Shown here one piece after another: positions 6,318 to 56,787 of a stretch of DNA of 64,000 nt. The notes below the pieces were generated by a model. That model searched no databases, was not told the origin of the DNA, and saw only the letters and a program-made list of their open reading frames with translations. Each line of letters begins with the position of its first letter. The stretch's first letter is position 1. Origin of the DNA: Bacteroidales bacterium (GTDB lineage: Bacteria > Bacteroidota > Bacteroidia > Bacteroidales > JAADJA01); NCBI GenBank assembly GCA_021740645.1, contig JAIOZL010000007.1, positions 1-64,000 of the forward strand. The letters run 5' to 3'. Made by a program: the position numbers and the translations under genes.

Positions 6318-9300
6318 ATGTTATACAAATTACAGTTAGCTGTTATACTTGCCCTATTTTTTGCAGGTATACAAGGGACATCGCAGGTTGTTAAATATTC
6401 CGGCAATTGGGGAGCTGATGGCTTAACCCTAAAATCCCAACAAAACAATAAAGTACTTATCAATCATTCCACTACAGAATTTGCTTTGCAGGATGTAGAT
6501 GTAGATGGGATACCGATGAAAAGCATAAAAACACCTGGTGTTTTTCTTCCTAATGATGAAGGTGCACCCGACCTACCTGGTACAGGCAGGTATATTGCTA
6601 TCCCCCAGGGAGCTTCCGTTTCTGTTAATATTCTTGCACTTGAAAAGGAAGTTTTTAAGAATATCGAAGTGGCCCCTGCACCACGAATTCCATGGGATAC
6701 TGATAGTGGACCATTGTACTATGAAAAGAATAGTCAAATATACAGTAAGGATGAATTTTATCCGGCTAACACAGTTAATATTTCCGAAATTTCTCAAATA
6801 CGGGGAGTAGATGTTGTGATGCTTGGTGTTACCCCTTTCCAATATAATCCGATTACGAAAGAATTAATCGTGTATAAAAACATTGAAATCGAAGTCAATA
6901 TTGAAGGTGGTAATGGTCAGGTTGGCGACAACAGGTTAAGAAGTCGCTGGTGGGATCCTGTTGTGATGGATGCCGTGATCAATCCGGAAGCCATTCCTGA
7001 AATGGATTATTCAAAAAAAGGGAATTACTCAGATACCCCCGATTACGAATACCTGATCATTTGTCCTAATGATCCAACATTCCTGGCATGGGCTGATTCC
7101 ATCAAGGTATGGAGAACTCTTCAGGGGATCGTCACGGGTGTAGTTACCACAACGGAAGTAGGAGGCAATACTACTACAGCCATTGAATCCTATGTAAACA
7201 ATGCCTATAATACCTGGGCGGTACCCCCTGTTGCTGTTTTATTACTAGGGGATTATGGCACAAGTGGAAATACTGTTATTTCTCCAATTTATAACAGTTA
7301 TTGCGTTTCAGATAACATATTTTCAGATGTGGATGGCAACCATCTTCCTGAAATGGTTTTTGCAAGGATGACGGCCCAAAATGCTACCCATCTTGAAACA
7401 ATGATTACCAAGTTTTTGGATTACGAGCGCAATCCTCCCACTAACCCAAACTTTTACAACAACCCGATTACAGCTTGTGGATGGCAAACAGAAAGATGGT
7501 TCCAACTATGCTCAGAAGTGGTTGGTGGTTACTGGAAAGAAGTACAGGGAAAAACTCCCGTTAGAATCAATGAAGTATACAGTGGAACACCGGGTACTTC
7601 ATGGTCTACTGCAACCAATACGAGCACTGTAGTAAACTATTTTGGCCCTACGGGATTAGGATATATCCCGGCTACTCCTAATATACTGGGGGGATGGACC
7701 GGAGGTAATGCAACCGCTATAAATAATGCCATCAACAATGGTGCTTTCATGCTTCAGCATCGTGATCATGGTTACGAACAGGGATGGGGTGAGCCCTCTT
7801 ATTCATCTACCAATATCAACGGACTTACCAATACCGATTTGACATGGGTATTTTCAATTAACTGTTTAACCGGAAAATACAATTACAGTAGTGAGGTATT
7901 TACAGAAAAGTTCCATCGATACACCTATAATGGTCATAATTCAGGGGCATTAGGTTTAACTGCAGCCTCAGAAGTATCCTATTCATTTGTAAACGATGCT
8001 TTTGTGTGGGGAATATTCGATAATTTGTGGCCCGATTTTATGCCTGCATATGGCACTAATCCACCATCCAGGGATGTATTGCCGTCATTTGGGATGGCAG
8101 CAGGTAAATATTTTCTGGCACAGTCTTCATGGCCTTATAATACCAGCAATAAAGAAGTAACTTATAATCTCTTCCACCATCATGGAGATGCATTTACAAC
8201 TGTGTATTCTGAAGTGCCTCAATATTTATCGGTTTCCCATAGTTCAACCCTCTTAAGTGGTGCAACTTCATTTGTTGTAACTGCTAACAGTGGTTCATTC
8301 ATTGCATTAACTGTGAATGGAGAAATTATTGGTACTGCGAATGGAACCGGAAGCCCTGTTTCAATCAGCATTCCTGCGCAGAGTCCAGGCGATGAAATGA
8401 TTGTTACGGTTACCCGGCAAAACTATTACAGGTACTCATCAGATGTTTCAGTAATCCCTCCGAGTGGAGCATATGTGTCATATTTTAACCATACCATCAA
8501 TGATGCTTCAGGCAACAACAACGGACAAGCCGATTTCGGTGAAAATATTTTACTGAACATGACATTGAAAAATGAGGGAAGTTCTGCTGCTTATAACGTA
8601 AGTGCAAGCCTTGCTTCCACAGATCCCTATGTTACCATTACCGATACTTATCAAAGCTTTGGTACAATAGGAACAGGTGCAACCATCACGCAAAATAACG
8701 CCTATGCGATAAATATTTCTGATGATGTCCCCGACCAGCATACTGTTAGTTTTGAGTTACAAATTAGTGGTACAAGCGATGACACCTGGTTGTCCACCTT
8801 TAGTATTATACTAAATGCTCCCGAATTAGCCACAGGTTTATTAAGTATTGATGATGCTTCAGGTAACAATAATGGGAAACTGGACCCCGGTGAAACCGTG
8901 AATGTTATTATAGAAACCAGTAATTTGGGTCACAGTAATTCCCTAACTGCTATTGGGACATTAGCCTGTGCTCATCCCGATGTTAACATTAACTCAGGTA
9001 CATTCAATTTTGGAATTATCCCTACCGGAGCAAGTGAAAATGCTTCTTTCAGTGTTAGCATTGACCCGGGAGCATCCATTGGGACTTCTGTGAATTTTAT
9101 TTATGATGTTACTGCCGGTAATTATACAGCAAATGAAACGTATATGCAAGTGATTGGACAGATTCCTGTACTGATCCTTGACCTGGACCCAAATGCAAGT
9201 TCAGGTCCAATCATGGGGAATGCGATGGATGGATTATCTGTTCCCTTTGATTACCTCACATCATTTCCGCCTGATTTAAATATTTATACCTCTGTTTTTG

Positions 9301-11423
9301 TTTGTTTGGGTATTTATAGCTCTAACCATATACTAACAGCTACAGAAGGCCAGGAATTGGCTACATATCTTAATAATGGCGGACAGGTTTACATGGAAGG
9401 AGGCGATACCTGGTATTACGACGCTACAACAGTAGCGCATGGCATGTTTAATATTAATCCTATGGCAGATGGGTCAGGCGATATGGGAACAGTTATTGGT
9501 GCTTCAGGAACATTTACTGCAGGATTGACCTTTACCTATTCAGGTGAAAACAACTGGATGGATCACATTGATCCTATTTCTCCCGCTTTTTCCATTTTTT
9601 CAAATCAATCGCCTGTATATGGCTGCGCTGTGGCATACGATGCAGGTGCCTATAAAACAATTGGTGCTTCTTATGAATTTGGTGGGTTATCTGATGGGGC
9701 CAGCCCATCTACAAAAGAAAATCTGATGAATGAATATCTTACTTTCTTTGGTATTACCGGAACTCCTTTACTTCCTGCTGATATCAGCGTTAATCCTTTA
9801 AGCTTTGAGGTAAGCCTTGAACCTGATGCCACCCAAATTGAAACCTTATCCATAAGCAACACTGGCGAGGTGGGATTAAATTTCAATATAGCAGTAAGCG
9901 GTTCAGATGCTTTGCAAGGGAAGTTACCCCAACTACTTACTCAGCAGCAAAAGCAGGATTTAAGATACAAAACGGATTATTCCAATGCTTATAATGAGCT
10001 TAGCCCAGGTGTACCGAATCCAGAAAATTGGGTGCTTCCTGCCTTGCAAAATCCCGGACAGGATGAATCAAAAGGAATTGAAACCTTTGGAAGCTGGACA
10101 GGAGGAAGTTATTCAGGTAGTGTTCGCGACAGGGGAAATATTTTCCATGTTACTACAACTACCACACTTCAGGAAATCCAATTCTATCTGGATATAACAT
10201 CCTCAACACAATTATATTTCTTTGTATATGAAGGAAGTGCTGTATCAGGTACTTTTTCTAAAATCAATGAAGTATATATCGCCAGTTCAGGGACAGGTAC
10301 CGGATGGTATTCTTCCGGTGCAATGAATGTTACCCTTGATGCCGGAAATTATTATTATATCGGAACAAGTTGGAATGGAACAGCAACTTATGGGCGAGGA
10401 ACTGAAGCAGTACCCCTTACCACATCATTCGGAACTCTTGAAACAGGTGTTCCTGCAACAACAGCAGGATATCCACCCGCGGCTACCTGCACAAATGCTT
10501 ATACAACAACTAGCCCATATTATCAGACATTGGTTACCAGCTCAACACCAGTATATAACTGGCTCGTACCTTCTGTGACCAGTGGGAATGTTCCTGGTTT
10601 ATCTTCCACAAACATAGATATCCTATTTGATGCTACAGGATTGACAACAGGTACATATATCAAAGATCTCGAAATAACAAGTAATGACCCTGATCAACCC
10701 CTGATTATTGTACCATGTACTTTACATGTCAATGATATAGTATCAACCATGTTAAATGCAACAGCATTTTTGGAAGGGCCATTCGTATCCACCGAAATGG
10801 TACCTTTTTTAAACTATTTTGGTTTTATTCCATTAGCTCAACCCTACAATACTTCGCCATGGAATTATAATGGAACTGAAGTTGTAACTGCTATTCCTTC
10901 ACTTGATGTGGTGGATTGGGTACTGATTGAATTAAGGGAAACCCCCGGAGATGTAACCACAGCCACACCTTCTACCATGATTGCAAGGCAGGCGGGATTT
11001 ATACTTACAGATGGTAGTATTGTATCCTCAGATGGTACATCTCAACTGAGTTTTGGAGTTACCATCACGCAAAACCTTTTTGTGGTAGTTTATCACCGTA
11101 ATCACCTAGGTATTATTTCAGCGGACCCTGTTACCCTCAATGGGGGAATGTTTAGCATTGATTTTACCACAAGTGAAAGCAAAGTGTTTGGAGCCGTCAA
11201 CGGGCAAAAAGAAATTGAACCGGGAATTTGGGGAATGTGTGCCGGGGATGCAAGTGCTAATGGTGAAATTGATAATATAGATAAGGATGACTATTGGCAT
11301 GCACAATATAATGGATTTGGATACCTCCCGGGAGACTTTGATATGAATGGCCAGGTGGATAATACTGACAGAAATGTGAAATGGAAAGAAAATGCCGGAA
11401 GATGTTCCTTTATTGTTAAGTAA
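6318..11423 (+). CDS. Giant secreted C25 (gingipain-type) cysteine peptidase with dockerin-like C-terminus
   Basis: This is a 1701-residue secreted endopeptidase. After a signal peptide (about 1-23) comes a propeptide-like region, then a C25 peptidase domain (about 240-640). The catalytic dyad appears as the His of QHRDHG (about 483) and the Cys of SINCLTG (about 516), a spacing close to that of gingipains. Next come two related Ig/CARDB-like repeats, each beginning with a DDASGNNNG-type stretch (about 720 and 845), and an alpha/beta module (about 950-1150; ILDLD, VFVCLGIYSSNH, YMEGGDTWYYD). A choice-of-anchor-like beta region follows. The final 220 residues end in two dockerin/EF-hand-like calcium loops (GDASANGEIDN, GDFDMNGQVDN) and SFIVK. 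No canonical T9SS type A tail is visible. The M14 gene downstream shares these C-terminal modules. Likely role: extracellular protein breakdown; the export route is inferred. Confidence 0.88.
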   Translation: MLYKLQLAVILALFFAGIQGTSQVVKYSGNWGADGLTLKSQQNNKVLINHSTTEFALQDVDVDGIPMKSIKTPGVFLPNDEGAPDLPGTGRYIAIPQGASVSVNILALEKEVFKNIEVAPAPRIPWDTDSGPLYYEKNSQIYSKDEFYPANTVNISEISQIRGVDVVMLGVTPFQYNPITKELIVYKNIEIEVNIEGGNGQVGDNRLRSRWWDPVVMDAVINPEAIPEMDYSKKGNYSDTPDYEYLIICPNDPTFLAWADSIKVWRTLQGIVTGVVTTTEVGGNTTTAIESYVNNAYNTWAVPPVAVLLLGDYGTSGNTVISPIYNSYCVSDNIFSDVDGNHLPEMVFARMTAQNATHLETMITKFLDYERNPPTNPNFYNNPITACGWQTERWFQLCSEVVGGYWKEVQGKTPVRINEVYSGTPGTSWSTATNTSTVVNYFGPTGLGYIPATPNILGGWTGGNATAINNAINNGAFMLQHRDHGYEQGWGEPSYSSTNINGLTNTDLTWVFSINCLTGKYNYSSEVFTEKFHRYTYNGHNSGALGLTAASEVSYSFVNDAFVWGIFDNLWPDFMPAYGTNPPSRDVLPSFGMAAGKYFLAQSSWPYNTSNKEVTYNLFHHHGDAFTTVYSEVPQYLSVSHSSTLLSGATSFVVTANSGSFIALTVNGEIIGTANGTGSPVSISIPAQSPGDEMIVTVTRQNYYRYSSDVSVIPPSGAYVSYFNHTINDASGNNNGQADFGENILLNMTLKNEGSSAAYNVSASLASTDPYVTITDTYQSFGTIGTGATITQNNAYAINISDDVPDQHTVSFELQISGTSDDTWLSTFSIILNAPELATGLLSIDDASGNNNGKLDPGETVNVIIETSNLGHSNSLTAIGTLACAHPDVNINSGTFNFGIIPTGASENASFSVSIDPGASIGTSVNFIYDVTAGNYTANETYMQVIGQIPVLILDLDPNASSGPIMGNAMDGLSVPFDYLTSFPPDLNIYTSVFVCLGIYSSNHILTATEGQELATYLNNGGQVYMEGGDTWYYDATTVAHGMFNINPMADGSGDMGTVIGASGTFTAGLTFTYSGENNWMDHIDPISPAFSIFSNQSPVYGCAVAYDAGAYKTIGASYEFGGLSDGASPSTKENLMNEYLTFFGITGTPLLPADISVNPLSFEVSLEPDATQIETLSISNTGEVGLNFNIAVSGSDALQGKLPQLLTQQQKQDLRYKTDYSNAYNELSPGVPNPENWVLPALQNPGQDESKGIETFGSWTGGSYSGSVRDRGNIFHVTTTTTLQEIQFYLDITSSTQLYFFVYEGSAVSGTFSKINEVYIASSGTGTGWYSSGAMNVTLDAGNYYYIGTSWNGTATYGRGTEAVPLTTSFGTLETGVPATTAGYPPAATCTNAYTTTSPYYQTLVTSSTPVYNWLVPSVTSGNVPGLSSTNIDILFDATGLTTGTYIKDLEITSNDPDQPLIIVPCTLHVNDIVSTMLNATAFLEGPFVSTEMVPFLNYFGFIPLAQPYNTSPWNYNGTEVVTAIPSLDVVDWVLIELRETPGDVTTATPSTMIARQAGFILTDGSIVSSDGTSQLSFGVTITQNLFVVVYHRNHLGIISADPVTLNGGMFSIDFTTSESKVFGAVNGQKEIEPGIWGMCAGDASANGEIDNIDKDDYWHAQYNGFGYLPGDFDMNGQVDNTDRNVKWKENAGRCSFIVK

Positions 11424-11504: not shown

Positions 11505-14500
11505 ATGAGGAAAGTATTATTGCTTTTAGGGATGGGTTTATGGACCATTCATATGGGCTTCGCCCAGGGATGGCGCCCACAGGAACAACAGGTTTTAATT
11601 GAGATCAACTCAGAATCTGATACACAGTTGATCAGAGATATGAAAATAAGTTTGGATGTTGTTTCAGCCAATTTGATTCGGGCATATTTAATTCCCAAAG
11701 AACTTGATCAGATATCTTCCTCTGGCCTGATCTATGAAATAGAAATAAATGACCTGAATCAACATAGTAAAGAACTACAATTTGCAGAAGATTCATGGCA
11801 TTCATACCAGGACATCATCGACCTGGCAGACAGTCTTGAGCAAGAGTTTCCATCCATTTGTAAAAAATATATTTTCGGCACTTCACTGGGTGGACGACAG
11901 TGTGCCGCACTTAAAATAAGTGATAACGTTGCAGTCGACGAGCCAGAGGCAGAATTAATGTTCGATGGAGGTATCCATGGAGATGAATATCCGGGCGCTG
12001 AAAATGTCATACGTTTTGCTCGTTATCTTTGCGTGGAATACGGGAATGACCCGAACATTACTAACCTCGTTGATAATCGTGAAACATGGCTATATCTGAT
12101 GGTAAATCCTGATGGGCGAGTAAATGTTAGCCGGTATAACAATAACAATGTCGATTTAAACAGGGATTGGGCCTATATGTGGGATGCGTGGGGAAGCAGC
12201 ACAGGCCCTTGCTCTCAGATAGAGAGTAAAGCGCTTCGCGAATGTATGTACAATAATCAGTTTGTAGTCCACACAACCTACCATGCCGGCACTGAATACG
12301 TTTCCTTACCCTGGAGTTATCGGTCAAGCCAACCCGCAGATTGGAACCATATTTATCAGCTGGGAAGTATTTATTCCTCCACCTCTTTGTATCCAAATCT
12401 TGATTTCGGGCAGGGAAATACAGGAATGTATGCAATAAACGGGAGTACCAAAGATTCTAACTATGGAATGATGGGGAGCATCAGCTGGTCGATGGAGATT
12501 TCAAACAGCAAAATACCACCTACTTCTCAAATTCAATTATATTATAATAGAAATGTACCTGCCATGCTTGCAATGATGGAATATGCAGGATATGGACTGC
12601 AAGGAATAATTACAGATGCAAATACAGGTTTACCAGTGGAAGCCATTGTTTTTGTAAATGACTATTTTCCTGTCTATTCGGATGCAACAGCCGGAGATTT
12701 TCATAAATATGTATTACCGGGAACCTACAATATATCAGTAATGGCCAATGGATATCAAATCCAAACAATAAACAATGTGCTGGTTGCTCCAAACAGTTCA
12801 ACACCTACAAATTTTCAATTACAACCAGCTACAGGTCAATATGCTTTTAAGGTAGCTGCTTGTCAGATACCCGGTAATAATGAAGCAGATGAGGGCTGGA
12901 CGCCAGGGGCATTAGGAGCCCCCGATAATATTAATTATTCCATTGGGAAAAATGGATGGATAGTGGTTGATATGCAATCTCCAATATCTGATGGCCCAGG
13001 ATATGATCTTACTGTTTTTGAAGGTGACAGCAGTCCCGAAACGTTCATTTGTTATGCGGGTATTTCAATGGATGGCCCGTGGATTAACCTGGGAACAGGG
13101 AATGGCACATCGAGCTTTGATTTGAGTGGCAGCGGATTAATAAATCCTCAATATATTAAAATTTTAGATGATGGTGATGGTTTATCAACTGCAAATAATG
13201 CCGGATTTGATCTTGATGCAATTGCTGTTACCGAGCCTGTTACCGGTACCTTTTTAATTCTTGACAATTATTCTATTGACGATAGCTTTGGCAATAATAA
13301 TGGGAAAATAGATCCCGGCGAGTCGGTTAATATCCTGGTAAGTATTCAAAACATTGGAGACTTATCGGCCGAAAATTCAGAGATTAACCTTTCAACAGTA
13401 TCCCCTTATATAACTATCTTAAGTAATACGGCATCTTTAGGTACTATTTTACCGGGAGAAACCGGAACGGGATCCATACCTGTATTAGCCAGTTCTGGCT
13501 CCCCTATCGGTGAATCCGCTTTGTTCGATTTATCTGTAAGTGCTAACAGTGGGGCTTATACAAGTAATTTCAATCTGAATTTTGTTATAGGTCAAATTAA
13601 TATAGCCATTTTAGATTTGGATGAAAATAACAGCTCGGGTCCATCAATAAAAACAAGCATTGAAAATAACGGATTGTTAGTAGATTACTTTGCCAGTTTT
13701 CAATCCAATATCAGTCAATATGACGCCTTATTTGTTTGTCTTGGGGTATATACTCAAAACCATGTGTTAACCTCCTCAGAAGGCCAGGTCCTGGCCAATT
13801 TTTTGAACGCAGGCGGTAATTTATATATGGAAGGGGCCGATACCTGGTTTTATGACCCCCAAACAGCTGTACATCCGATGTTTAATATTCTTGGAAATGC
13901 GGATGGTAGTGCTGATTTGCAAGACATATTAGGAATTGCGGGGACATTTACCGAGGGAATGAGTTTTAGTTATTCTGGTGATAACAATTGGATAGATAGA
14001 ATTAGTGCCCAAAATTCTGCGGAATTGATCTTTGTGAATCAATCACCATCTTATGGGACAGGTGTAATTTTCGACGGTGGAACCTACAAAACTATCGGGG
14101 TTTCTCACGAGTTTGGTGGACTTGATAATGGGGTTTCCCCTTCTACTCAAACAGAACTCATGGAGAAATATCTCGACTATTTTGGTATGTTTCCTGAACC
14201 ACCCACCAATACAATATTGCAGGTTTCCTGTTTACTCGAAGGCCCATATTTTGGGGGTGAAATGTCAAATGGTTTAAACCTTTTTGGAATGCTTCCTTTA
14301 AATCAGCCTTATGACGTGGAGCCCTGGTTTTACTCGGGAACTGAAAACGTGGAATCCATCCCCCATACAAATATTGTGGATTGGGTTTTAGTTGAACTCA
14401 GGGAAACTGCAGGTGATGTTTTGAGTGCTATACCTATTACAAAAGTAGGGATGCAGGCCGGTTTTATTTTAAAAAACGGACAAATAGTATCTACTGATGG

Positions 14501-14888
14501 AGTTTCCCCATTAAATTTTAACCTTGATATTACAGCTAACCTTTTTGTAATTATATATCACAGAAACCATACTGCCATCATTTCTGCACTCCCTGTAAGC
14601 CATTCCAATGAAGTTTACTCCATTGATTTTAGCAGTAGTGGAGATATGGCTTTTGGCGGTAGCAACGGTCAAAAAGAAATTGCACCTGGATTATGGGCAA
14701 TGTTTTCAGGTGATGGAAACGCTGATGGAGAAATCAATAATCTGGATAAAGATGATATTTGGATAAACCATTTTGGAAATGCTGGTTATTTTTCTGGTGA
14801 TTTTAATCTGAATGGACAGGTCGACCAGATTGATCTCAACTTTCAGTGGCAATCCAATAGTGGAAAAACCTCCTATATTATTAAATAA
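11505..14888 (+). CDS. Secreted M14 zinc carboxypeptidase with CarboxypepD_reg and dockerin-like C-terminus
   Basis: This is a 1127-residue secreted metallopeptidase that would cleave residues from the C-termini of proteins. After the signal peptide (MRKVLLLLGMG...GFAQ) lies an M14 domain (about 95-365). The zinc ligands are in HGDEYPGAE (about 157-160) and VVHTTYH (about 255), a substrate-binding NPDGRVN...DLNRDW stretch is present, and the catalytic Glu is in SWSMEIS (about 330). A CarboxypepD regulatory-like beta domain (about 368-445) and beta-sandwich regions follow. The alpha/beta module (ILDLDENNSSG, FVCLGVYTQNH, GADTWFYD) and the C-terminal block with two dockerin-like loops (GDGNADGEINN, GDFNLNGQVDQ) closely match those of the C25 gene upstream. 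It ends SYIIK and has no T9SS type A tail. The pair probably act together on extracellular protein. Confidence 0.9.
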   Translation: MRKVLLLLGMGLWTIHMGFAQGWRPQEQQVLIEINSESDTQLIRDMKISLDVVSANLIRAYLIPKELDQISSSGLIYEIEINDLNQHSKELQFAEDSWHSYQDIIDLADSLEQEFPSICKKYIFGTSLGGRQCAALKISDNVAVDEPEAELMFDGGIHGDEYPGAENVIRFARYLCVEYGNDPNITNLVDNRETWLYLMVNPDGRVNVSRYNNNNVDLNRDWAYMWDAWGSSTGPCSQIESKALRECMYNNQFVVHTTYHAGTEYVSLPWSYRSSQPADWNHIYQLGSIYSSTSLYPNLDFGQGNTGMYAINGSTKDSNYGMMGSISWSMEISNSKIPPTSQIQLYYNRNVPAMLAMMEYAGYGLQGIITDANTGLPVEAIVFVNDYFPVYSDATAGDFHKYVLPGTYNISVMANGYQIQTINNVLVAPNSSTPTNFQLQPATGQYAFKVAACQIPGNNEADEGWTPGALGAPDNINYSIGKNGWIVVDMQSPISDGPGYDLTVFEGDSSPETFICYAGISMDGPWINLGTGNGTSSFDLSGSGLINPQYIKILDDGDGLSTANNAGFDLDAIAVTEPVTGTFLILDNYSIDDSFGNNNGKIDPGESVNILVSIQNIGDLSAENSEINLSTVSPYITILSNTASLGTILPGETGTGSIPVLASSGSPIGESALFDLSVSANSGAYTSNFNLNFVIGQINIAILDLDENNSSGPSIKTSIENNGLLVDYFASFQSNISQYDALFVCLGVYTQNHVLTSSEGQVLANFLNAGGNLYMEGADTWFYDPQTAVHPMFNILGNADGSADLQDILGIAGTFTEGMSFSYSGDNNWIDRISAQNSAELIFVNQSPSYGTGVIFDGGTYKTIGVSHEFGGLDNGVSPSTQTELMEKYLDYFGMFPEPPTNTILQVSCLLEGPYFGGEMSNGLNLFGMLPLNQPYDVEPWFYSGTENVESIPHTNIVDWVLVELRETAGDVLSAIPITKVGMQAGFILKNGQIVSTDGVSPLNFNLDITANLFVIIYHRNHTAIISALPVSHSNEVYSIDFSSSGDMAFGGSNGQKEIAPGLWAMFSGDGNADGEINNLDKDDIWINHFGNAGYFSGDFNLNGQVDQIDLNFQWQSNSGKTSYIIK

Positions 14889-15443: not shown

Positions 15444-15542
15444 ACGCTTTTAATGCTACTGTTAATTAAGCGTTAAAAACGTTATTTATAAAATATTTGT
15501 AACTATTTTGAGATATTTTTGTTAAAATCCTATCAGGTCTTT

Positions 15543-16442
15543 ATGAGGAAATTTATTGTTATAGTATTTTATTTTGTTAGCCTTCACGTATTTGGACAAC
15601 CAAATTATATCGTGAGAGGTGATGCTATTTGGAGTACACTTGAAACACATTGTATGCCTGGTGGCAACAATTATTCGACCTACCATATTAAATTTTCAGG
15701 CGATACATTAATTGAAGATTTGAGCTATACTCAAATTTTGAGGTGTGATGAAGAGGGGCAAACTGCATGGGAGCTCTATGGTTTTATCCGTGAAGACAGT
15801 GATGGAAGGGTTTTCCTTCGCCCAGCCGATTATATGGAAGGCCTGATTTATGACTTTGGAGTAGAAGTGGGTGATTCGGTTCGGGCAAAAAATATTTATT
15901 TAAACTCGGATACGCTCCATTATATTGTTACCAATATTGACTATGTTGAACTTGCCGGTGAGTATAAAAAGCGCATTTCATTATACGAATATATTAATGA
16001 AAAGGAAGAAATTTGGATTGAAGGTTTAGGATCCTATTTTGGAATTTTAAATAGTTGCAACAATTCGTATGGTGGCCTTTGTGGAAATTATGAAGCACTA
16101 TGTTTTGAGGAAAACGGAATACTTATATACCAACATCCAGACTATTCGGTTTGCCATTTTGAAGCAACTGTTGGAACCGGGGAACAAGCTTATAACCAAT
16201 CAGAGGTTAGTGTTTACCCAAACCCTGCAAAGGATTTCCTTCATATTGATTTTTCAGAAGACATTAATATCAATAATGGCGTGAGTATAAAGTTATTAAA
16301 AATTAATGGTGAAAAAATACTACAAAAAAATCTTGCAAATTCTAAAAATGTAGTATATTTGCATTCAGTCGATGCTGGAATTTACTTGTTAAAGATAGAT
16401 AATATAGGAGTGAAAACTCCAATTAAGATAATTTTTGATTAA
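15543..16442 (+). CDS. Secreted T9SS-tailed protein of unknown function
   Basis: About 299 residues. I use the ATG at 15543, not the TTG at 15519, because it gives a clean signal peptide (MRKFIVIVFYFVSLHVFGQ). The middle is a beta-rich domain with several tyrosines and four clustered cysteines (about residues 170-190: NSCNNSYGGLCGNYEALCF). I do not recognise it beyond a general resemblance to short Bacteroidota secreted proteins. The last 80 residues form a T9SS type A sorting domain: VYPNPAKDFLHIDF, a KLLKINGE strand, and DAGIYLLKID with a closing KIIFD. It should therefore be exported and fixed to, or released from, the cell surface. Confidence 0.75.
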   Translation: MRKFIVIVFYFVSLHVFGQPNYIVRGDAIWSTLETHCMPGGNNYSTYHIKFSGDTLIEDLSYTQILRCDEEGQTAWELYGFIREDSDGRVFLRPADYMEGLIYDFGVEVGDSVRAKNIYLNSDTLHYIVTNIDYVELAGEYKKRISLYEYINEKEEIWIEGLGSYFGILNSCNNSYGGLCGNYEALCFEENGILIYQHPDYSVCHFEATVGTGEQAYNQSEVSVYPNPAKDFLHIDFSEDININNGVSIKLLKINGEKILQKNLANSKNVVYLHSVDAGIYLLKIDNIGVKTPIKIIFD

Positions 16443-29314: not shown

Positions 29315-29419
29315 GCTTATTTAGTGTGTCCTAGTTTAACGAATATTTAAAATTGTTATTTCAGAATAAGTAAAATTCAAAAGAAGTTATAGGACAAAAG
29401 TAATAATTCAAATCCATCT

Positions 29420-31393
29420 ATGTTATCAAAATATTACCTTCTGATCTTTAACATAATATGTGTTCTGCATTTAATTGGACAGGATCATTTACTTATCCCT
29501 TCTGAAAATTACTGCTCACATGTCCGAATGGCGCACAAATCTACCTTCCATTCGACCGATATTGATCAAACTCCACTCCTCTTTAATTACGATGTAAAAT
29601 TTTACCATTTAGATTTAAACGTAGAGAACAATACTACCTTTTTATCAGGCTCAGTAACGATACTGGCAGAAGTTACTTCCCAACAGCTTGATACATTTGC
29701 GGTTGAGCTAATCGATGAAATGATCATAGATTCGATTTATGTAAATTCGGTTATTCACCCTTTTTATAGAGAATCTGATGAAGTTTTTATTCCTTTAACA
29801 GAAACTTTGCCACAGTCTTCCAATCTGTCAGTAAAGTTTTATTACCATGGAAATCCACCAGTAGGAGGTTTTTTTAGTGGTGTTAATATCGATTATGATT
29901 CATTGTGGAATAAATCTGTTGTATGGACCCTTTCTGAGCCATTTAATGCACGCCAATGGTGGCCTGTCAAACAGGTTCTATATGATAAAGCCGATAGTGT
30001 ATGGGTTTTTCTGACTACGAGTAACGAGAATTTGGCCGGAACAAATGGTATTCTCGAAAATGTAGTCCCATTGCCAAACAATAAAACACGATTTGAATGG
30101 AAAAGTAATTCCCCAATAGCCTACTATTTAATTTCATATGCTGTGGCCGACTACCAGGATTATAGCATTTATGCCAAACCTAGCCAAATGAATGGGGATT
30201 CCATTTTAGTTCAGAATTTTATTTATGACGATCCTGGCTGTCTGAATATTTATAAAGAAAGGATAGACAGAACAGTGCCAATGATTGAGCTATTTTCTGA
30301 TCTGTATTCACTTTATCCCTTTTACGAAGAAAAATATGGCCATTGTTTAGCAAGCATTTCAGGAGGCATGGAACATCAAACCATGACCACCCTAAATGAT
30401 TTTGGACTGGGCCTGGTAGCCCACGAACTTGCCCATATGTGGTTCGGTGATAACGTTACCTGTGCTACTTGGAGTGATATATGGGTAAATGAGGGTTTTG
30501 CAACGTATAGCGATTACCTTGCTCATGAAATTATCGCTGGTGATCATTGGCCAGCATTGTGGATGAAACTGGCTCATAATTATGTCATTTCTGAACCGGG
30601 TGGTAGTATTTACGTTCCCCCCGAAGAAGTAGAATACGACAGTGTTTTAAGAATTTTTAGTAGCAGGCTAACCTATTATAAAGGAGCTATTATGCTTCAT
30701 ATGATCCGTTACGAGCTTAATGATGATGACCTCTTTTTTCAAGTGTTTAAAGACTATCAGCAAATTTTTAAAGATTCGGTAGCAACAAGTTTCGACTTTC
30801 TGAATGTGCTTAATGAAACTACCGGGAAGGATTTTAATTTATTCTTCGATCAATGGTTTTTTGGCGAAGGCTATCCAATTTATACCCTGGACTATAGCAT
30901 CAATGATGGAATCCTGGAGATTCATTCTACCCAAACAGCTTCAAAACCTGAAGCGACCCCATTTTTTGATATGAGATATCCGTTATTCATATACTTCAAC
31001 GATGAAAGTGATACAGTGATCCATATATCCCAAAAGCAACCTTTAGAAACTATAACTGTCAATGTTTCAAAGGGTGTTGACAGCATTCGTTTAGATCCAG
31101 GGAACTGGGTATTAAAAAAAGTGGACGGAATTAATAATATAACTTCTTCCATCTTGAAAGATAATATCATCATTGTTCCCAATCCTGCATCTGACTTTAT
31201 TACTATTTCAGGCTTGGAGTTATCCGGTACAGATCTAATTTCAATTTTTAATAATACTGGAACGCGAATTTCTAAAACAATGGCAGTTGTAGGTAAAAAC
31301 AAGATAAATATAACACATTTGAGTTCTGGGCTTTATTTTATTCAAGTAGAATTGCCCAAAAGAAAAATTTTAAAAAAATTCATTAAACATTAA
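29420..31393 (+). CDS. Secreted M1-family aminopeptidase with T9SS tail (copy 1)
   Basis: A 657-residue secreted zinc aminopeptidase. After the signal peptide, an M1 N-terminal beta domain (about 50-245) precedes the catalytic domain. Zinc ligands are in HELAHMWFGD (about 335-344) and the downstream Glu of WVNEGFATY (about 358). The exopeptidase loop reads SGGMEHQ, a variant of the canonical GxMEN. The C-terminal 75 residues are a T9SS type A domain: VPNPASDFITISGLEL, SIFNNTGTRIS, SSGLYFIQVE and closing KKFIKH. It is the first of two tandem paralogues, only 20 bp before the second, so they are probably one transcript. Role: releasing N-terminal residues from peptides outside the cell. Confidence 0.92.
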   Translation: MLSKYYLLIFNIICVLHLIGQDHLLIPSENYCSHVRMAHKSTFHSTDIDQTPLLFNYDVKFYHLDLNVENNTTFLSGSVTILAEVTSQQLDTFAVELIDEMIIDSIYVNSVIHPFYRESDEVFIPLTETLPQSSNLSVKFYYHGNPPVGGFFSGVNIDYDSLWNKSVVWTLSEPFNARQWWPVKQVLYDKADSVWVFLTTSNENLAGTNGILENVVPLPNNKTRFEWKSNSPIAYYLISYAVADYQDYSIYAKPSQMNGDSILVQNFIYDDPGCLNIYKERIDRTVPMIELFSDLYSLYPFYEEKYGHCLASISGGMEHQTMTTLNDFGLGLVAHELAHMWFGDNVTCATWSDIWVNEGFATYSDYLAHEIIAGDHWPALWMKLAHNYVISEPGGSIYVPPEEVEYDSVLRIFSSRLTYYKGAIMLHMIRYELNDDDLFFQVFKDYQQIFKDSVATSFDFLNVLNETTGKDFNLFFDQWFFGEGYPIYTLDYSINDGILEIHSTQTASKPEATPFFDMRYPLFIYFNDESDTVIHISQKQPLETITVNVSKGVDSIRLDPGNWVLKKVDGINNITSSILKDNIIIVPNPASDFITISGLELSGTDLISIFNNTGTRISKTMAVVGKNKINITHLSSGLYFIQVELPKRKILKKFIKH

Positions 31394-31413
31394 AAATCAA
31401 AAACAATTTTACC

Positions 31414-33390
31414 ATGAGAAAATCAATTTTACTTTCAATCCTGGGCATTTTCCTTATAAGCTTGCAAGTGTTCTCACAGCATCTACATGATGATCACGAA
31501 TTATATTGCAGTAAAGCCCGTTTTTATAAAGAATATTTTAAGAATTCAAAGGATGTAGTACAAACACCCCTCCTCCACAATTATGATGTTAAGCATTATT
31601 ACCTGGATATTGAGGTAGACAATTCTTCTACTTATGTTGCCGGTGAAGTTACTTTCTATTCAGAAGTGGTTACTGAAGTGCTTGACACATTTGCATTTGA
31701 ATTACTTGATGGGATGAATATTAACGATGTTTTGATCAACAATGAATCTCTTTCTTACCTTTTCGAAAATAGTGAATGTTTTGTTCCTTTAAATGTGCCT
31801 CTGGCCGAAGGGGAAATGTTTACTGCCAAAATTAGTTATGATGGCACTCCACCTTCTGGCGGATTTTTTTCAGGGATATCTAATTCAAACGACTGGAATA
31901 AGGACGTGACCTGGACCTTAAGTGAGCCCTTTGCTGCCCGCGACTGGTGGCCAACAAAACAAGTTCTAGAAGATAAAGCTGATTCAGTTTGGGTATTCTT
32001 AACCACCGCAAATACCAATATGGCAGGTTCAAACGGTCTTCTTACTAATGTGGTAAATTTACCTGACAATAAGGTCAGGTACGAATGGAAATCGAACTAT
32101 CCTATTGCCTATTATCTTATCTCTTTTGCCGTCTCAGAATACCAGGAGTATAACATCTATGCCCACCCCCAGGAAATGAATGGAGATTCTGTATTAATTC
32201 AAAACTTTATATACGATTCTCCCGGTTGCCTCGAAAATTATCAGACAGGGATTGATCAAACTGCAGAGTTTATCGAATTATTTTCAGATTTAATTACCCT
32301 TTACCCATTTCATGAAGAAAAATACGGACATTGCCTTACTGCTTTGGGTGGAGGTATGGAGCATCAAACTATGACTACAATCGGAGGCTTTTCCTTTGGC
32401 CTGGTTGCTCATGAACTGGGGCATATGTGGTTTGGCGACAATATTACCTGTGCAACATGGAGTGATATCTGGATCAATGAAGGCTTTGCAACGTATATGG
32501 ATTATCTGGCCAACGAGTACATCCTGGGTCAGTCAGCAGCTAATGCAAAAATGAACAGTATTCATAATTCTGTTAAATCACAACCTGATGGAAGCGTTTA
32601 TGTTCCTACGGATGAAGTGACTTATGACAATGTGTGGAGAATTTTTGATGGAAGACTATCCTACAATAAAGGGGCCGCTATCATTCATATGATTCGCTTT
32701 GAATTACAAGATGATGATTTATTTTTCCAGGTTTTAAAAGATTACCAGGAGATATATACGGATAGCACTGCCACCGGATTAGATTTTATGAATGTTTTGA
32801 ATGAAACATCCGGTATGGATTTTACCCAGTTTTTCGATCAATGGTATTTCGGAGAAGGATATCCAACCTTTAGTATCGACTACTCACAGGATGAAGGATA
32901 TACCTATTTTGAAATTACCCAAAATGTTTCAGCACCTTCAGTTACGCCAGTATTTAAAATGTTAATGGAATATAAATTGTTATTCTATGATGGAACTGAT
33001 ACCACGATACAATTGGTACAAACGGATAATGTAAACACCTTCATGCTTCCAATCACCAAAGATATCGGACTCATTCAAATTGATCCATCCAATTGGGTAA
33101 TTAATAGCGCAGGAGCTATTACTACCAATGTGTATGATGAATTCAATCCTGCGAGGTTCCATATGGGTCCAAATCCTGCCCTGGATATATTAAATATTAA
33201 TTTTATCCAATCGGAGACGGGGGATAAAATTATAACTATTTTCGACCTAAAAGGTAATGAAGTACTTACATTTGGTACCAGTGAAATATTTAATCCAATT
33301 GATGTTTCTGGAATTGCACCCGGAACCTATTTTATCCTGGCTGAAAGTGGTAATGAAACTTATTCGAAGAAATTTATCAAAGTAAATTAG
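31414..33390 (+). CDS. Secreted M1-family aminopeptidase with T9SS tail (copy 2)
   Basis: 658 residues and clearly paralogous to the gene before it over its whole length, sharing for example PSGGFFSG, WTLSEPFAAR and DKADSVWVFLTT. The signal peptide is MRKSILLSILGIFLISLQVFS. Zinc-binding residues are in HELGHMWFGD and INEGFATYMDY (about 335-360), and the exopeptidase loop is GGGMEHQ. The T9SS tail differs more than the rest: MGPNPALDILNINF, IFDLKGNE, APGTYFILAE and KKFIKVN. The tandem pair probably arose by duplication; differences in the substrate pocket could widen specificity, but that is inference. Confidence 0.92.
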   Translation: MRKSILLSILGIFLISLQVFSQHLHDDHELYCSKARFYKEYFKNSKDVVQTPLLHNYDVKHYYLDIEVDNSSTYVAGEVTFYSEVVTEVLDTFAFELLDGMNINDVLINNESLSYLFENSECFVPLNVPLAEGEMFTAKISYDGTPPSGGFFSGISNSNDWNKDVTWTLSEPFAARDWWPTKQVLEDKADSVWVFLTTANTNMAGSNGLLTNVVNLPDNKVRYEWKSNYPIAYYLISFAVSEYQEYNIYAHPQEMNGDSVLIQNFIYDSPGCLENYQTGIDQTAEFIELFSDLITLYPFHEEKYGHCLTALGGGMEHQTMTTIGGFSFGLVAHELGHMWFGDNITCATWSDIWINEGFATYMDYLANEYILGQSAANAKMNSIHNSVKSQPDGSVYVPTDEVTYDNVWRIFDGRLSYNKGAAIIHMIRFELQDDDLFFQVLKDYQEIYTDSTATGLDFMNVLNETSGMDFTQFFDQWYFGEGYPTFSIDYSQDEGYTYFEITQNVSAPSVTPVFKMLMEYKLLFYDGTDTTIQLVQTDNVNTFMLPITKDIGLIQIDPSNWVINSAGAITTNVYDEFNPARFHMGPNPALDILNINFIQSETGDKIITIFDLKGNEVLTFGTSEIFNPIDVSGIAPGTYFILAESGNETYSKKFIKVN

Positions 33391-49791: not shown

Positions 49792-49853
49792 ATAATTTAA
49801 CTTCTGTTATATTGGGGTATGACACGAATTGCTAACAAATAAATTTTACTATT

Positions 49854-51578
49854 ATGAAAACACTAAAAAACACATTATTTTTATTAATCGCGATGCTTAC
49901 AATAAATATTGGAGCATTTGCCACTGCCCGAGTGCAGGTAATTCACAATTCATCCGATAAAGCAGCCGAAATAGTTGATGTATGGTTGGATGATGTCTTA
50001 TTAATTGATGATTTCAAATTCAGAACAGCAACACCATTTATTGATGCACCGGCTGGTGAAGAGTTTACAATTTCAATTAAAGGCCCTGATAGCATGGATC
50101 CCAACAATCCAATCTGGTCGATGAACTACACCCTTGCCGAAGGCGAGACCTACGTACTTGTTGCTAATGGTATTGTAAGCGCTACAGGTTACGACCCCAT
50201 AAAACCTTTCGATATTTATGTTTATGGGCTCGGACGTGAAGGAGCAAGCATGGCTTCAAATACGGATGTATTGGTATTCCACGGATCTACTGATGCTCCT
50301 ACCGTTGATGTAAAAGAAATTGGTGCTGGTGCAGGAACTATTGTTGATGATTTAATGTATGGTGATTTCGCAGGATACCTGGAACTTCCGACAGCAGATT
50401 ATATTTTAGATATCCGCGATATGACAGGTGAAAACTCAGTAGTCAGTTACGCTGCACCCCTTTCAACCTTAGGCCTTGATGGTGCTTCATTAGTAGTTGT
50501 AGCCTCAGGCTTCCTGAATCCTGATAATAATAGCATGGGTGAAGGATTTGGATTATGGGTTGCTCTGCCAACTGGTGGTGAATTAGTAGAGCTTCCGGTT
50601 TTTGAAGCAGGAAATGCCAGGGTACAGGTTATCCACAACTCAGCAGATATGGCAGCAGAAACTGTAGACATTTGGTTGAATGAAACGCTTTTTCTTGACG
50701 ACTTTTCATTCCGTAACGCATCTCCTTATATCGATGCACCAACCGGAATAAACCTGAGGATTAATATTAAAGGCGCCGACAGCAGCACTCCTGATAATCC
50801 AATCTGGTCAAATAATTACAATTTGGAAGATGGTAAATCCTACATCCTTATTGCCAATGGTATTGTAAGTGCCAGTGGGTACGACCCAATTGAGCCTTTC
50901 GACATCTATGTTTATGATATGGGACGCGAAGAAGCTTCCAATACTTCTAACACTGATGTGTTGGTATTCCACGGATCAACAGATGCTCCTACAGTTGATG
51001 TAGTAGAGATAGGAGTAGGTGTAGGAACAATCGTTGACGACCTGATGTACGGAATGTATGCAGGGTACCTGGAATTACCTACAGATGATTACCGTTTAGC
51101 CATTAAAGACGAAACCGGAACTTCAACTGTAGTTACGTATGATGCTCCTTTAGCAATGCTGGGATTAGATGGTGCAGCAATTGCAGTAGTTGCCTCTGGA
51201 TTTTTAAATCCTGACAACAACAGCATGGGCGAAGGTTTTGGCTTATGGGTTGCTTTACCCTCGGGTGGCGAATTACTTCCCTTAACACAATTTACGAATG
51301 TTACAACCAATATCATTCAGGAACGTAACGTAAACGTTTATCCTAACCCGGCTGAAAGTTTCGTTAATGTGGAATATGCTATTGATAGTGAAGCGAATGT
51401 TTCAGTAGTAGTATTTGATTTGGTTGGAAGTAAAGTATTTGCCCAGGAGTATGACGGCAAAGCAAATCAATTAGAAAACCGCAGAATCGACCTGACTTCC
51501 TTGAACAATGGGATGTATTTTGTAACAATTAACGCTGGAGAATCAAGAATTACAAAGAAGATTCAAGTGGTTAATTAA
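49854..51578 (+). CDS. Secreted DUF4397 tandem-repeat protein with T9SS tail
   Basis: 574 residues. A signal peptide (LFLLIAMLTINIGAFA) is followed by two copies of a DUF4397-type unit, about 25-255 and 257-485. Each begins ARVQVIHNSxDxAAExVD and contains LVFHGSTDAPTVDV, DDLMYG and SGFLNPDNNSMGEGFGLWVALP. The copies are highly similar even at the DNA level, indicating a fairly recent internal duplication. The last 80 residues are a T9SS type A domain: NVYPNPAESFVNVEY, VFDLVGSKVF, NNGMYFVTI and TKKIQVVN. The function of DUF4397 is unknown; relatives are cell-surface beta-sandwich proteins. It is a single-gene transcript ending at a strong terminator. Confidence 0.9.
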   Translation: MKTLKNTLFLLIAMLTINIGAFATARVQVIHNSSDKAAEIVDVWLDDVLLIDDFKFRTATPFIDAPAGEEFTISIKGPDSMDPNNPIWSMNYTLAEGETYVLVANGIVSATGYDPIKPFDIYVYGLGREGASMASNTDVLVFHGSTDAPTVDVKEIGAGAGTIVDDLMYGDFAGYLELPTADYILDIRDMTGENSVVSYAAPLSTLGLDGASLVVVASGFLNPDNNSMGEGFGLWVALPTGGELVELPVFEAGNARVQVIHNSADMAAETVDIWLNETLFLDDFSFRNASPYIDAPTGINLRINIKGADSSTPDNPIWSNNYNLEDGKSYILIANGIVSASGYDPIEPFDIYVYDMGREEASNTSNTDVLVFHGSTDAPTVDVVEIGVGVGTIVDDLMYGMYAGYLELPTDDYRLAIKDETGTSTVVTYDAPLAMLGLDGAAIAVVASGFLNPDNNSMGEGFGLWVALPSGGELLPLTQFTNVTTNIIQERNVNVYPNPAESFVNVEYAIDSEANVSVVVFDLVGSKVFAQEYDGKANQLENRRIDLTSLNNGMYFVTINAGESRITKKIQVVN

Positions 51579-53706: not shown

Positions 53707-54282
53707 TTACTTCAATACGGTCATTTTTTTACTGTCACTTATTGTTCCATTTAATTCGAGCGTATAAAAATAAATTCCCGGGGCTAATCCACTTGCATTA
53801 AATTCAAATGAGTGATTACCTTCAGATTTTGTACCCTGGTTAATTGTTTTTAATGATCTGCCGGCACAATCATATATTGTTATAATTACCCGTGACTCAT
53901 TCTCAAGCTTATACCAAATATTAGTGGATGTTTTAAATGGATTAGGGGAATTCTGTAAAAGTTCACCATGTTTTAATCCGGATATTGTGCCTGGTGTACC
54001 TGGTGACTTTTTATCTCCGGGCAACAATGATATCAGGTAATGGGTATATTCCGCATGGGCCTTCATTGATTCGGGGATATATTGTGGCATTGAGCCAACA
54101 AACTGTGATGATTTGGCCCCTCCTTGCTGCATTAGTAAATAGGTGGCCTGTAAATCAATAATAGCATGAATAGAATCGGCAAAGGAAGGAGAATTAAGGA
54201 TCATATTTTCAAACCAGCTAATGGCATCCGGCCAGTTTGCAAGTTTGAGACAATCAGTTCTGGTAAGAGGGGTGGTATTCGA
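53707..54282 (-). pseudogene. Orphan C-terminal fragment of a T9SS protein
   Basis: An open frame without a convincing start. It reads SNTTPLTRTDCLKLANWPDAISWFE and continues into the tracked ORF (MILNSPSFADSIHAIIDL). I recall this as the segment preceding the sorting domain in larger Bacteroidota T9SS proteins. It ends in a T9SS type A domain: NSPNPFKTSTNIWYKL, YDCAGRSLKT, APGIYFYTLEL and SKKMTVLK. Upstream, in the same reading frame, three stop codons separate it from the end of the C13-like gene at 54313. It is best read as the 3' remnant of a larger gene that lost its 5' part, perhaps by the deletion that also truncated the C13-like gene. Confidence 0.75.
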
Positions 54283-55291: not shown

Positions 55292-56728
55292 TTAATGTTT
55301 GATTAGTTTAATTGATTTAAAAAATATCCCATCTGTTTGTACAACAGCAAAGTAAATTCCCGGCTTAACCTCGTTATTATTAAAATCACAGGCATTCCAG
55401 CTTAATAAATTTTTACCTCCTTTCTTAAAATTTGTGGTTAAACTGAAAACGTTTTTACCTCGTAAATCATAAATGGAAATATTTAATTTAGAGCATTGTA
55501 TTTTTGAAAAGTTAAAATTTATTTTTTCTGTAAATGGATTTGGAAAAGCCTTAATATCTGAAAGGCTTTCGGACTTTTCAGGTACGTTTGTTATTGGGTC
55601 AGGCACAAAGTTACCTTCCCCGTCATTGAACAGAATTATTACATTATAGGGCAGCGTCATTTGTGTACTGATAATTGTAACAATATCATTGAAACCGTTC
55701 CCGTCAAAATCATTACAATCCAGGCTTCCCAACTGGTAGCCAAGATTATTAATATCAATATTTTGATCATATTCCAGTTGAAAATCCCCCAGATTATTAT
55801 AAATTAATAATTCTGAATGGTCCCAGTCAATAAAGATCATATCTGGTAATGAGTCATTGTTAAAATCAGAAATTTGTCCATAAGCACAAAAAGGTGAAAA
55901 CTGGAAATAATCGTGCTCTAAAAACTGGTTGTTGCCATTGTTTTCAAACATATATACACGATGGTTAGGGTAAACAAAAGTTGTATGTGTTATTATATCG
56001 TTGTCACCATCATTGTCAAAATCGGAAATCGAAACATCATGGCTTAATGTGGTAGTTAATACAAGTTGTTGGAAACCGGTATCATTACTGAAATATATTT
56101 CAGTATCTGAACCGGAAATAACAACATCTGCCCTGCCGTCATCATTCAGGTCAGCACAAGCAATATCAATGGGTGGGAAAGTTAAATCAAAATATTCGGG
56201 AGCTGTAAAGTTGCCGGTTCCATCATTGTATATTATTCCCCAAAGAAAATCATTGTTTGATATAAAGGCAAAATCAATGGCATCATTACCAGAAATATCC
56301 CCATAAATAAAATCGGTTAAATGATTGCACATTGGAAAATAAGAAATATAATAATTGCCATTGTTTATTTCAATAATAGCAACATTTGTTTGCTGACCGT
56401 CATAAAACCTGCCTAATATTTCTGGGTATTCATTTCCAATAATATTAAATGAATAGATAATGTTTTGACCACCATACATGTATAGTGTATCTTTAATTTC
56501 GAATATTCCGTTCTCAATATTTTCAAAAAATGTTATACCACTCCAATTAGATATAGAACTATAATTATGGCCAAAAACAATATCAGCATCACCTTCTAAA
56601 TCCAGGTCATTTGAAATAACAGAAATAGCAGATATTGGTATTTGATACTCACTCTTACTATCTCCTATTTTTAAAGAAAGAAATAGAAAAGCGAAAATGG
56701 CGATTATAGTATATTTTAATTTTTTCAT
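55292..56728 (-). CDS. Secreted FG-GAP/VCBS-repeat protein with T9SS tail (copy 1)
   Basis: 478 residues with a signal peptide (MKKLKYTIIAIFAFLFLSLKIG). The body is a beta-propeller of FG-GAP/VCBS-type blades, marked by calcium-loop motifs such as DLNDDGRADVV (about 195), DFDNDGDNDII (about 235), DFNNDSLPDMIF and DFDGNGFNDIV. The T9SS tail begins AFPNPFTEKINFNF and ends KPGIYFAVVQ...KSIKLIKH. Such propellers bind calcium and usually mediate adhesion or ligand binding at the surface. The copy at 56788-58219 is a full-length paralogue; their middle blades are far more alike than their ends. It is probably co-transcribed with the C13-like gene. Confidence 0.85.
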   Translation of the reverse strand: MKKLKYTIIAIFAFLFLSLKIGDSKSEYQIPISAISVISNDLDLEGDADIVFGHNYSSISNWSGITFFENIENGIFEIKDTLYMYGGQNIIYSFNIIGNEYPEILGRFYDGQQTNVAIIEINNGNYYISYFPMCNHLTDFIYGDISGNDAIDFAFISNNDFLWGIIYNDGTGNFTAPEYFDLTFPPIDIACADLNDDGRADVVISGSDTEIYFSNDTGFQQLVLTTTLSHDVSISDFDNDGDNDIITHTTFVYPNHRVYMFENNGNNQFLEHDYFQFSPFCAYGQISDFNNDSLPDMIFIDWDHSELLIYNNLGDFQLEYDQNIDINNLGYQLGSLDCNDFDGNGFNDIVTIISTQMTLPYNVIILFNDGEGNFVPDPITNVPEKSESLSDIKAFPNPFTEKINFNFSKIQCSKLNISIYDLRGKNVFSLTTNFKKGGKNLLSWNACDFNNNEVKPGIYFAVVQTDGIFFKSIKLIKH

Positions 56729-56787
56729 AACGTTATGTTAATAAGGTTATTATTTTTGCAAAATGTTTCATAGTCTTACAAATACAG

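Follow-up and report, generated by a model that had tools for sequence, protein, structure and literature searches.

An X-dockerin-like module on peptidases of a Bacteroidales genus and its predicted docking to cohesin scaffolds with T9SS anchors

Two neighbouring peptidases of a Bacteroidales genome, one of family C25 and one of family M14, end in the same block, which we identify as an X-dockerin-like docking module that probably assembles the peptidases on T9SS-anchored cohesin scaffolds through predicted binding. Because the genome contains about 50 of these plugs together with matching sockets on scaffold proteins, members of the genus probably assemble on their surface a complex that resembles a cellulosome and is rich in peptidases. 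The window referred to below is the whole stretch of DNA that was analysed, 64,000 nucleotides long, and the genome that holds it comprises 5.06 Mb on 83 contigs (95.8% complete, 5.95% contamination).

The shared block and its dockerin character

The final 226 residues of the C25 and M14 peptidases align with 54% identity and 0 gaps (pairwise alignment, E 7e-76), and a second region common to the two proteins, of about 310 residues and 48% identity, lies upstream of the module. The initial annotation of the window had described a common C-terminal block with two calcium loops, and both elements are borne out, its coordinates for the block being right to within a few bases (Table 1). Pfam and NCBIfam searches of the two peptidases matched the catalytic domains and no domain over the module of about 225 residues; the libraries tested had missed it because its scores fall short of the Pfam dockerin model.

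Table 1. Features of the two window peptidases (window coordinates) and of two cohesin gene pairs elsewhere in the same genome (contig coordinates)
Feature	Position	Strand	Details
C25 (gingipain-family) peptidase with C-terminal module	6318..11423	+	1701 aa; Pfam PF01364 (E 7.6e-45), PF08126, PF03785
Putative signal peptide, C25 peptidase	6318..6383	+	Hydrophobic N-terminus MLYKLQLAVILALFFAGIQGTSQ; predicted boundary, Q next
X-dockerin-like module, C25 peptidase	10746..11423	+	About 50 own-genome copies; AF2 pLDDT 97.6; Foldseek ranks 1-9 are XDoc
Beta-rich (X-module-like) part, C25 module	10746..11222	+	Model strands E2-6 to E154-158; approximate boundary
Dockerin calcium loop 1, C25 module	11247..11282	+	DASANGEIDNID; D1/D12 in 45/48 and 47/48 copies; then helix H177-187
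Dockerin calcium loop 2, C25 module	11334..11369	+	DFDMNGQVDNTD; D1/D12 in 47/48 and 47/48 copies; then helix H206-216
M14 zinc carboxypeptidase with C-terminal module	11505..14888	+	1127 aa; Pfam PF00246 (E 3.4e-43)
Putative signal peptide, M14 peptidase	11505..11564	+	MRKVLLLLGMGLWTIHMGFAQ; predicted boundary, Q next
X-dockerin-like module, M14 peptidase	14211..14888	+	54% identity with C25 module
Dockerin calcium loop 1, M14 module	14712..14747	+	DGNADGEINNLD; ungapped alignment with C25 module
Dockerin calcium loop 2, M14 module	14799..14834	+	DFNLNGQVDQID; ungapped alignment with C25 module
Anchor C13_80595	C13:80595-85796		1734 aa; one cohesin, then type A CTD
Scaffoldin C13_85781	C13:85781-89257		1159 aa; four cohesins, then module; directly behind anchor C13_80595
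Anchor on C5	C5_32456-39322		At least 2289 aa; cohesin, then type A CTD
Scaffoldin C5_29906	C5, pair C5:29906-39322		823-aa frame; four cohesins, then divergent module

Both loops of the window copies come close to the pattern D-x-[ND]-x-[DN]-[GN]-x-[IV]-[ND]-x-x-D. In 48 aligned copies of the module, positions 1 and 12 are nearly always Asp (Table 1), positions 3 and 5 are Asn or Asp and position 9 is mostly so; the module carries the two 12-residue calcium loops of a dockerin (D-x-[ND]-x-[DN]-G-x-[IVL]-[ND]-x-x-D), each with a helix behind it. A profile of the module, searched against the PDB, matched the dockerin of C. cellulolyticum endoglucanase A (Cel5A; 2vn5, E 0.006; 2vn6, E 0.026), and the match to 2vn5 reaches the last residues, with an SSQVP end opposite SSKLP. 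Pfam Dockerin_1 matched 12 of the 48 copies (best E 0.0027), and the window copies gave no match to it.

The AlphaFold2 model of the C25 module (225 residues, pTM 0.93) places a helix directly behind each loop and packs the beta domain and the dockerin as one unit, so that the predicted architecture is a beta-rich domain packed on a two-loop calcium-binding dockerin. In a Foldseek search of the PDB, the top nine matches are X-module-dockerin chains of C. thermocellum CipA/CipB (E 0.0055-0.12, probability 0.82-0.99), followed by a clear drop. We take the dockerin half of the predicted module to be secure; a relationship between the beta half and the clostridial X-module is only suggested, since the fold alignment to the clostridial X-dockerins is loose (rmsd 4-8 Å, 9-13% identity). 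The beta domain could alternatively be a carbohydrate- or surface-binding lectin that tethers the enzymes to their substrate or to envelope glycans, in which case the dockerin part would serve to stabilise it. Its beta-rich nature and distant, non-significant fold matches to carbohydrate-binding proteins (4iyk, 8wae) speak for such a role, but matches of this type have probabilities of 0.06-0.35, against 0.82-0.99 for the X-dockerins, and the cargo consists mostly of peptidases and mixed enzymes; we regard a lectin function as highly improbable.

Copies of the module and their cohesin partners

Recurrence of the module in its own genome is far beyond chance. With the C25 block as query, 52 matches were obtained on 21 contigs, or about 50 copies once broken ones are joined, and a single contig of 110 kb (C13) holds 14 of the 52; the figure of about 50 counts copies of this module. 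In-frame stops break the copies at L043:5651-6391 (own C18:83650-84390) and L035:5680-6636 (own C13), which are either pseudogenes or assembly errors, and the genome's SprA match on C50 also contains one TAG. A search of a plasmid collection yielded no relatives.

The module lies at most 20 residues from the stop codon in 44 of 50 near-complete copies, and 40 of these 44 proteins close with [VIL]P followed by one residue or none, SQVPQ being the typical end. The hydrophobic-basic ends singled out by the initial annotation, SFIVK and SYIIK, are present in the two window copies and are exceptions among their C-terminal counterparts in the genome. The remaining six of the 50 copies are internal or N-terminal, and five of them are followed by FISUMP domains (TIGR02145; L043, L032, L059, L052, L047). 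In the protein C23_10894 (L053:2895-4925, own contig C23), the module stands right behind the signal peptide and a glycoside-hydrolase-like domain occupies the C-terminus. By a simple hydrophobicity rule, 46 of 49 module proteins have a signal-peptide-like start, and the three that lack one include two cut by contig ends. The cargo comprises peptidases of families C25, M14, C10, S8, M28, C1 and M1 along with other enzymes, which suggests the breakdown of protein-rich material.

Cohesin-like partners, for which the initial annotation had advised a search, are encoded in the same genome: Pfam Cohesin gives six matches above its cut-off and six weaker ones, and cohesin and module often share one protein. 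The own-genome loci were read with cohesin, type A CTD and module profiles made for this work. Two of these loci pair an anchor gene, whose product has one cohesin and a type A CTD, with a scaffoldin gene, whose product has four cohesins and a module (Table 1). The C13 pair (C13:80595-89257) is immediately followed by two more module proteins, and a protein with one cohesin and a module (C5_26271) is encoded downstream of the C5 pair. Lone cohesins occur on C54 and C71, the latter adjoining a module gene. A single cohesin searched against PDB sequences returned no sensible match, but a fold search did: for the model of C5_26271 (pLDDT 93, pTM 0.84), the first match is 3kcp, a cohesin-X-dockerin fragment of CipA (E 2e-13), and type I cohesins come next (TM 0.7-0.8).

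The anchor-then-scaffoldin order recurs in seven further genomes (G300, G301, G302, G307, G311, G312, G317) and in a genome from another family of the order (G357). Conservation of the pair inside the genus does not amount to many independent cases, because G300, G301 and G302 belong to the genus of the window and are, by identical contig coordinates, the same as G314, G315 and G309. The loci L167 and L171 (G300) come from a MAG titled Chlorobiota bacterium that has the coordinates of G314 of the window genus, and the title looks wrong. In a genome of another class (G014), a variant is found in which a cohesin-CTD gene and a cohesin-module gene are adjacent, and G358 and G349 have anchor and multi-cohesin genes, these without a module. 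In a tree of the cohesins, those of anchors and those of scaffoldins separate with one change; in a tree of the modules, the scaffoldin-borne copies form no clade apart from the enzyme-borne ones (12 changes over 17). Two dockerin types, one for scaffoldins and one for enzymes, were thus sought by tree and not found, and the dockerins, unlike those of Clostridium, give no sign of a neat division into two tiers of specificity.

Across a sample of 297 genomes of the phylum, the module was found in 42, and cohesins accompany it in 27 of these 42 as opposed to 71 of the 255 module-negative genomes (Fisher P 1e-5; P 0.002 among SprA-positive genomes). All 17 sampled genomes of the genus, its own included, carry the module in 4 to at least 49 copies each (the counts being lower bounds); elsewhere in the order it was found in only 3 of 43 genomes. 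Among the genomes of the order searched for cohesins, these were present in 15 of 15 with the module and 2 of 11 without it, or 4 of 4 and 2 of 11 when counted by family. Many genomes of the phylum have the module as a single copy. At L076, L080, L084, L087, L088, L092 and other loci, from several families, a single protein of about 700-830 aa has a divergent terminal module, apparently one per genome.

Single copies of this kind, the very stable predicted fold and the 15 of 42 module-positive genomes in which the Pfam cohesin search found none would all fit a partnerless, calcium-stabilised cap or spacer that protects the ends of secreted proteins. We consider such a cap very unlikely, as cohesins are found in the same proteins as modules and in neighbouring genes in several families, both loops are intact, and the co-occurrence of cohesin and module has a P of 1e-5. 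The loops, the fold, the 2vn5 profile match, the cohesins and the scaffoldin gene pairs lend good support to the suggestion, made at the outset by analogy with dockerins, that the block takes part in complex assembly.

The module in relation to T9SS sorting domains

That the module stands in place of a T9SS domain is an apt description, as either of the two can be found on members of the same enzyme family. Among the 14 C25 peptidases of the genome, 12 have a type A CTD at their end, two have the module (the window protein and one on C57) and none has both. The contig C60 (1-6000, L291) encodes a paralogous C25-M14 pair in which both proteins have a terminal type A CTD and not the module; its C25 peptidase shares 54% identity with the window C25 over 1126 residues, and its M14 fragment shares 58% with the window M14 over 244. 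In the fetched loci of the genome, 51 module proteins and 36 CTD proteins were counted, with 0 having both, and in the wider set one protein (L267_802) has cohesins, module and CTD together. A hidden type A or type B sorting domain in the window peptidases was considered and rejected, since neither TIGR04183 nor TIGR04131 matched either protein up to E 1; the initial annotation had likewise found no type A domain in them. It had counted four other CTD proteins in the window, and the type A profile built here gives seven, the listed ranges being 15492-16439, 29393-33387, 49836-51575, 53710-54282 and 55295-58068.

This exchange of module for CTD across paralogous C25-M14 pairs, together with the largely C-terminal position, the signal peptides and the absence of any protein with both domains from the fetched loci, could be taken to mean that the module represents a T9SS sorting domain of a new class, read directly by the translocon or by a carrier protein. 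The distribution of T9SS points the same way: SprA is present in all 42 module-positive genomes of the phylum, compared with 187 of the 255 module-negative ones (P 1e-5, with lineage effects still included), and the module is therefore not one that occurs mainly in organisms without T9SS, a finding that the initial annotation would have held against its own proposal.

Against this reading stands a Candidatus Thermoplasmatota MAG of 1.5 Mb (G297), which has at least 10 module matches and two cohesins (L101, L112, L208-L212, L270) and in which searches for SprA and the type A CTD detected neither; the other module genomes searched alongside it have at least 105 type A CTDs each. The presence of the module in this MAG without a detected T9SS argues that it works without T9SS. 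The contigs concerned also encode an archaeal type IV pilin domain (PF07790), NFACT and a C25 peptidase with the module, and in one protein of the MAG two modules stand in tandem, while another has a probable membrane anchor behind its module. Mere binning contamination as the source of these copies was considered and rejected, given the archaeal type IV pilin N-terminal domain on the contigs and the lack of a type A CTD in the MAG. The occurrence of the module in this one MAG probably reflects lateral transfer.

The copy that sits right behind a signal peptide and ahead of an enzyme domain, the five copies that precede FISUMP domains and the single protein of one genome that combines cohesins, module and CTD are also at odds with a sorting domain, as are the tandem archaeal modules and a fold that is that of a dockerin and not the CTD sandwich. 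The module has no TIGR match, is not confined to organisms with T9SS and is not strictly C-terminal. Because at least 10 copies occur in an archaeal MAG in which no T9SS was detected, and because some copies stand inside a protein or at its N-terminus, the module itself is probably not a T9SS sorting signal, and the early suggestion that it might be one is unsupported; we judge a new sorting-domain class to be unlikely.

A putative surface complex and its relation to known systems

The genome encodes multi-cohesin scaffoldins, cohesin anchors with a surface-attachment domain, about 50 module proteins and many peptidases, as expected of a cellulosome-like system. Taking the module, its loops and fold, the cohesins, the anchor CTD, the gene order and the exchange of module for CTD as read from sequence and model, we infer the following scheme. 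Each peptidase would be exported by Sec, and its module would plug, with calcium, into a cohesin of a scaffold protein. The scaffoldin, with four cohesins and a module of its own, would in turn dock on the single cohesin of the anchor, whose type A CTD would direct it through T9SS to display on the cell surface. As a result, some enzymes would be bound to the surface by docking, and their paralogues would be surface-bound or released by means of their own CTD. The binding of module to cohesin, the preference for particular cohesins, the surface location and the outer-membrane route of CTD-less proteins are the predicted parts of this docking scheme. We tentatively raise the possibility, in our view a doubtful one, that docking doubles as an export ticket, whereby CTD-less peptidases and scaffoldins bind the anchor cohesin in the periplasm and ride T9SS as passengers, or the translocon reads the module itself. 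If the passengers do travel in this piggy-back manner, one CTD would export a preassembled complex.

Assembly of the cellulosome type has been described from Gram-positive anaerobes. In the Bacteroidota genus studied here, about 50 dockerin-like modules form a large set that is loaded with peptidases and accompanied by cohesin anchors with a T9SS domain, and it becomes testable whether Bacteroidota form cellulosome-like complexes, how CTD-less proteins pass the outer membrane and whether the kit moved into archaea. In the open-access literature that we covered, a rumen study states that cohesins and dockerins are lacking from the genomes of Bacteroidetes (PMC5831590), marginal dockerins are noted in cockroach Bacteroidota (PMC10266427), and a review of T9SS CTD types A, B and C mentions no dockerin (PMC10202324).

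Like those CTDs, the module occupies the C-terminal ends of Sec-exported Bacteroidota proteins and alternates with them on paralogues of the same enzymes; unlike them, it is matched by neither TIGR04183 nor TIGR04131 in the window peptidases, adopts another predicted fold and is found in an archaeal MAG. The type I dockerins (PF00404; C. cellulolyticum Cel5A) share its loop pattern, repeat spacing and C-terminal LP/VP end, but its Pfam scores are marginal and it has a beta domain in front. The closest fold is that of the type II X-module-dockerin of C. thermocellum CipA/CipB, in which a beta domain and a two-loop calcium dockerin likewise lie at the C-terminus behind the cohesins of scaffoldins; for the type II complexes of clostridia, a stabilising effect of the X-module on the dockerin has been proposed (PMC5141474). 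In contrast to CipA/CipB, the dyad described here is found on enzymes too and not on the scaffoldin alone, its beta domain is larger (about 160 residues versus 98, at 9-13% sequence identity), and the surface anchor is a T9SS domain. In overall architecture, the system resembles the complex predicted for Candidatus Stygibacter of the Cloacimonadota, with dockerin enzymes, among them a C25 peptidase, and a scaffoldin that combines cohesins with a CTD of the T9SS type (PMC8542988). There, one scaffoldin of 3,755 aa with CBMs bears the CTD itself, whereas the genus of the window, in another phylum, has a two-gene anchor and scaffoldin, about 50 clients and a genus-wide distribution.
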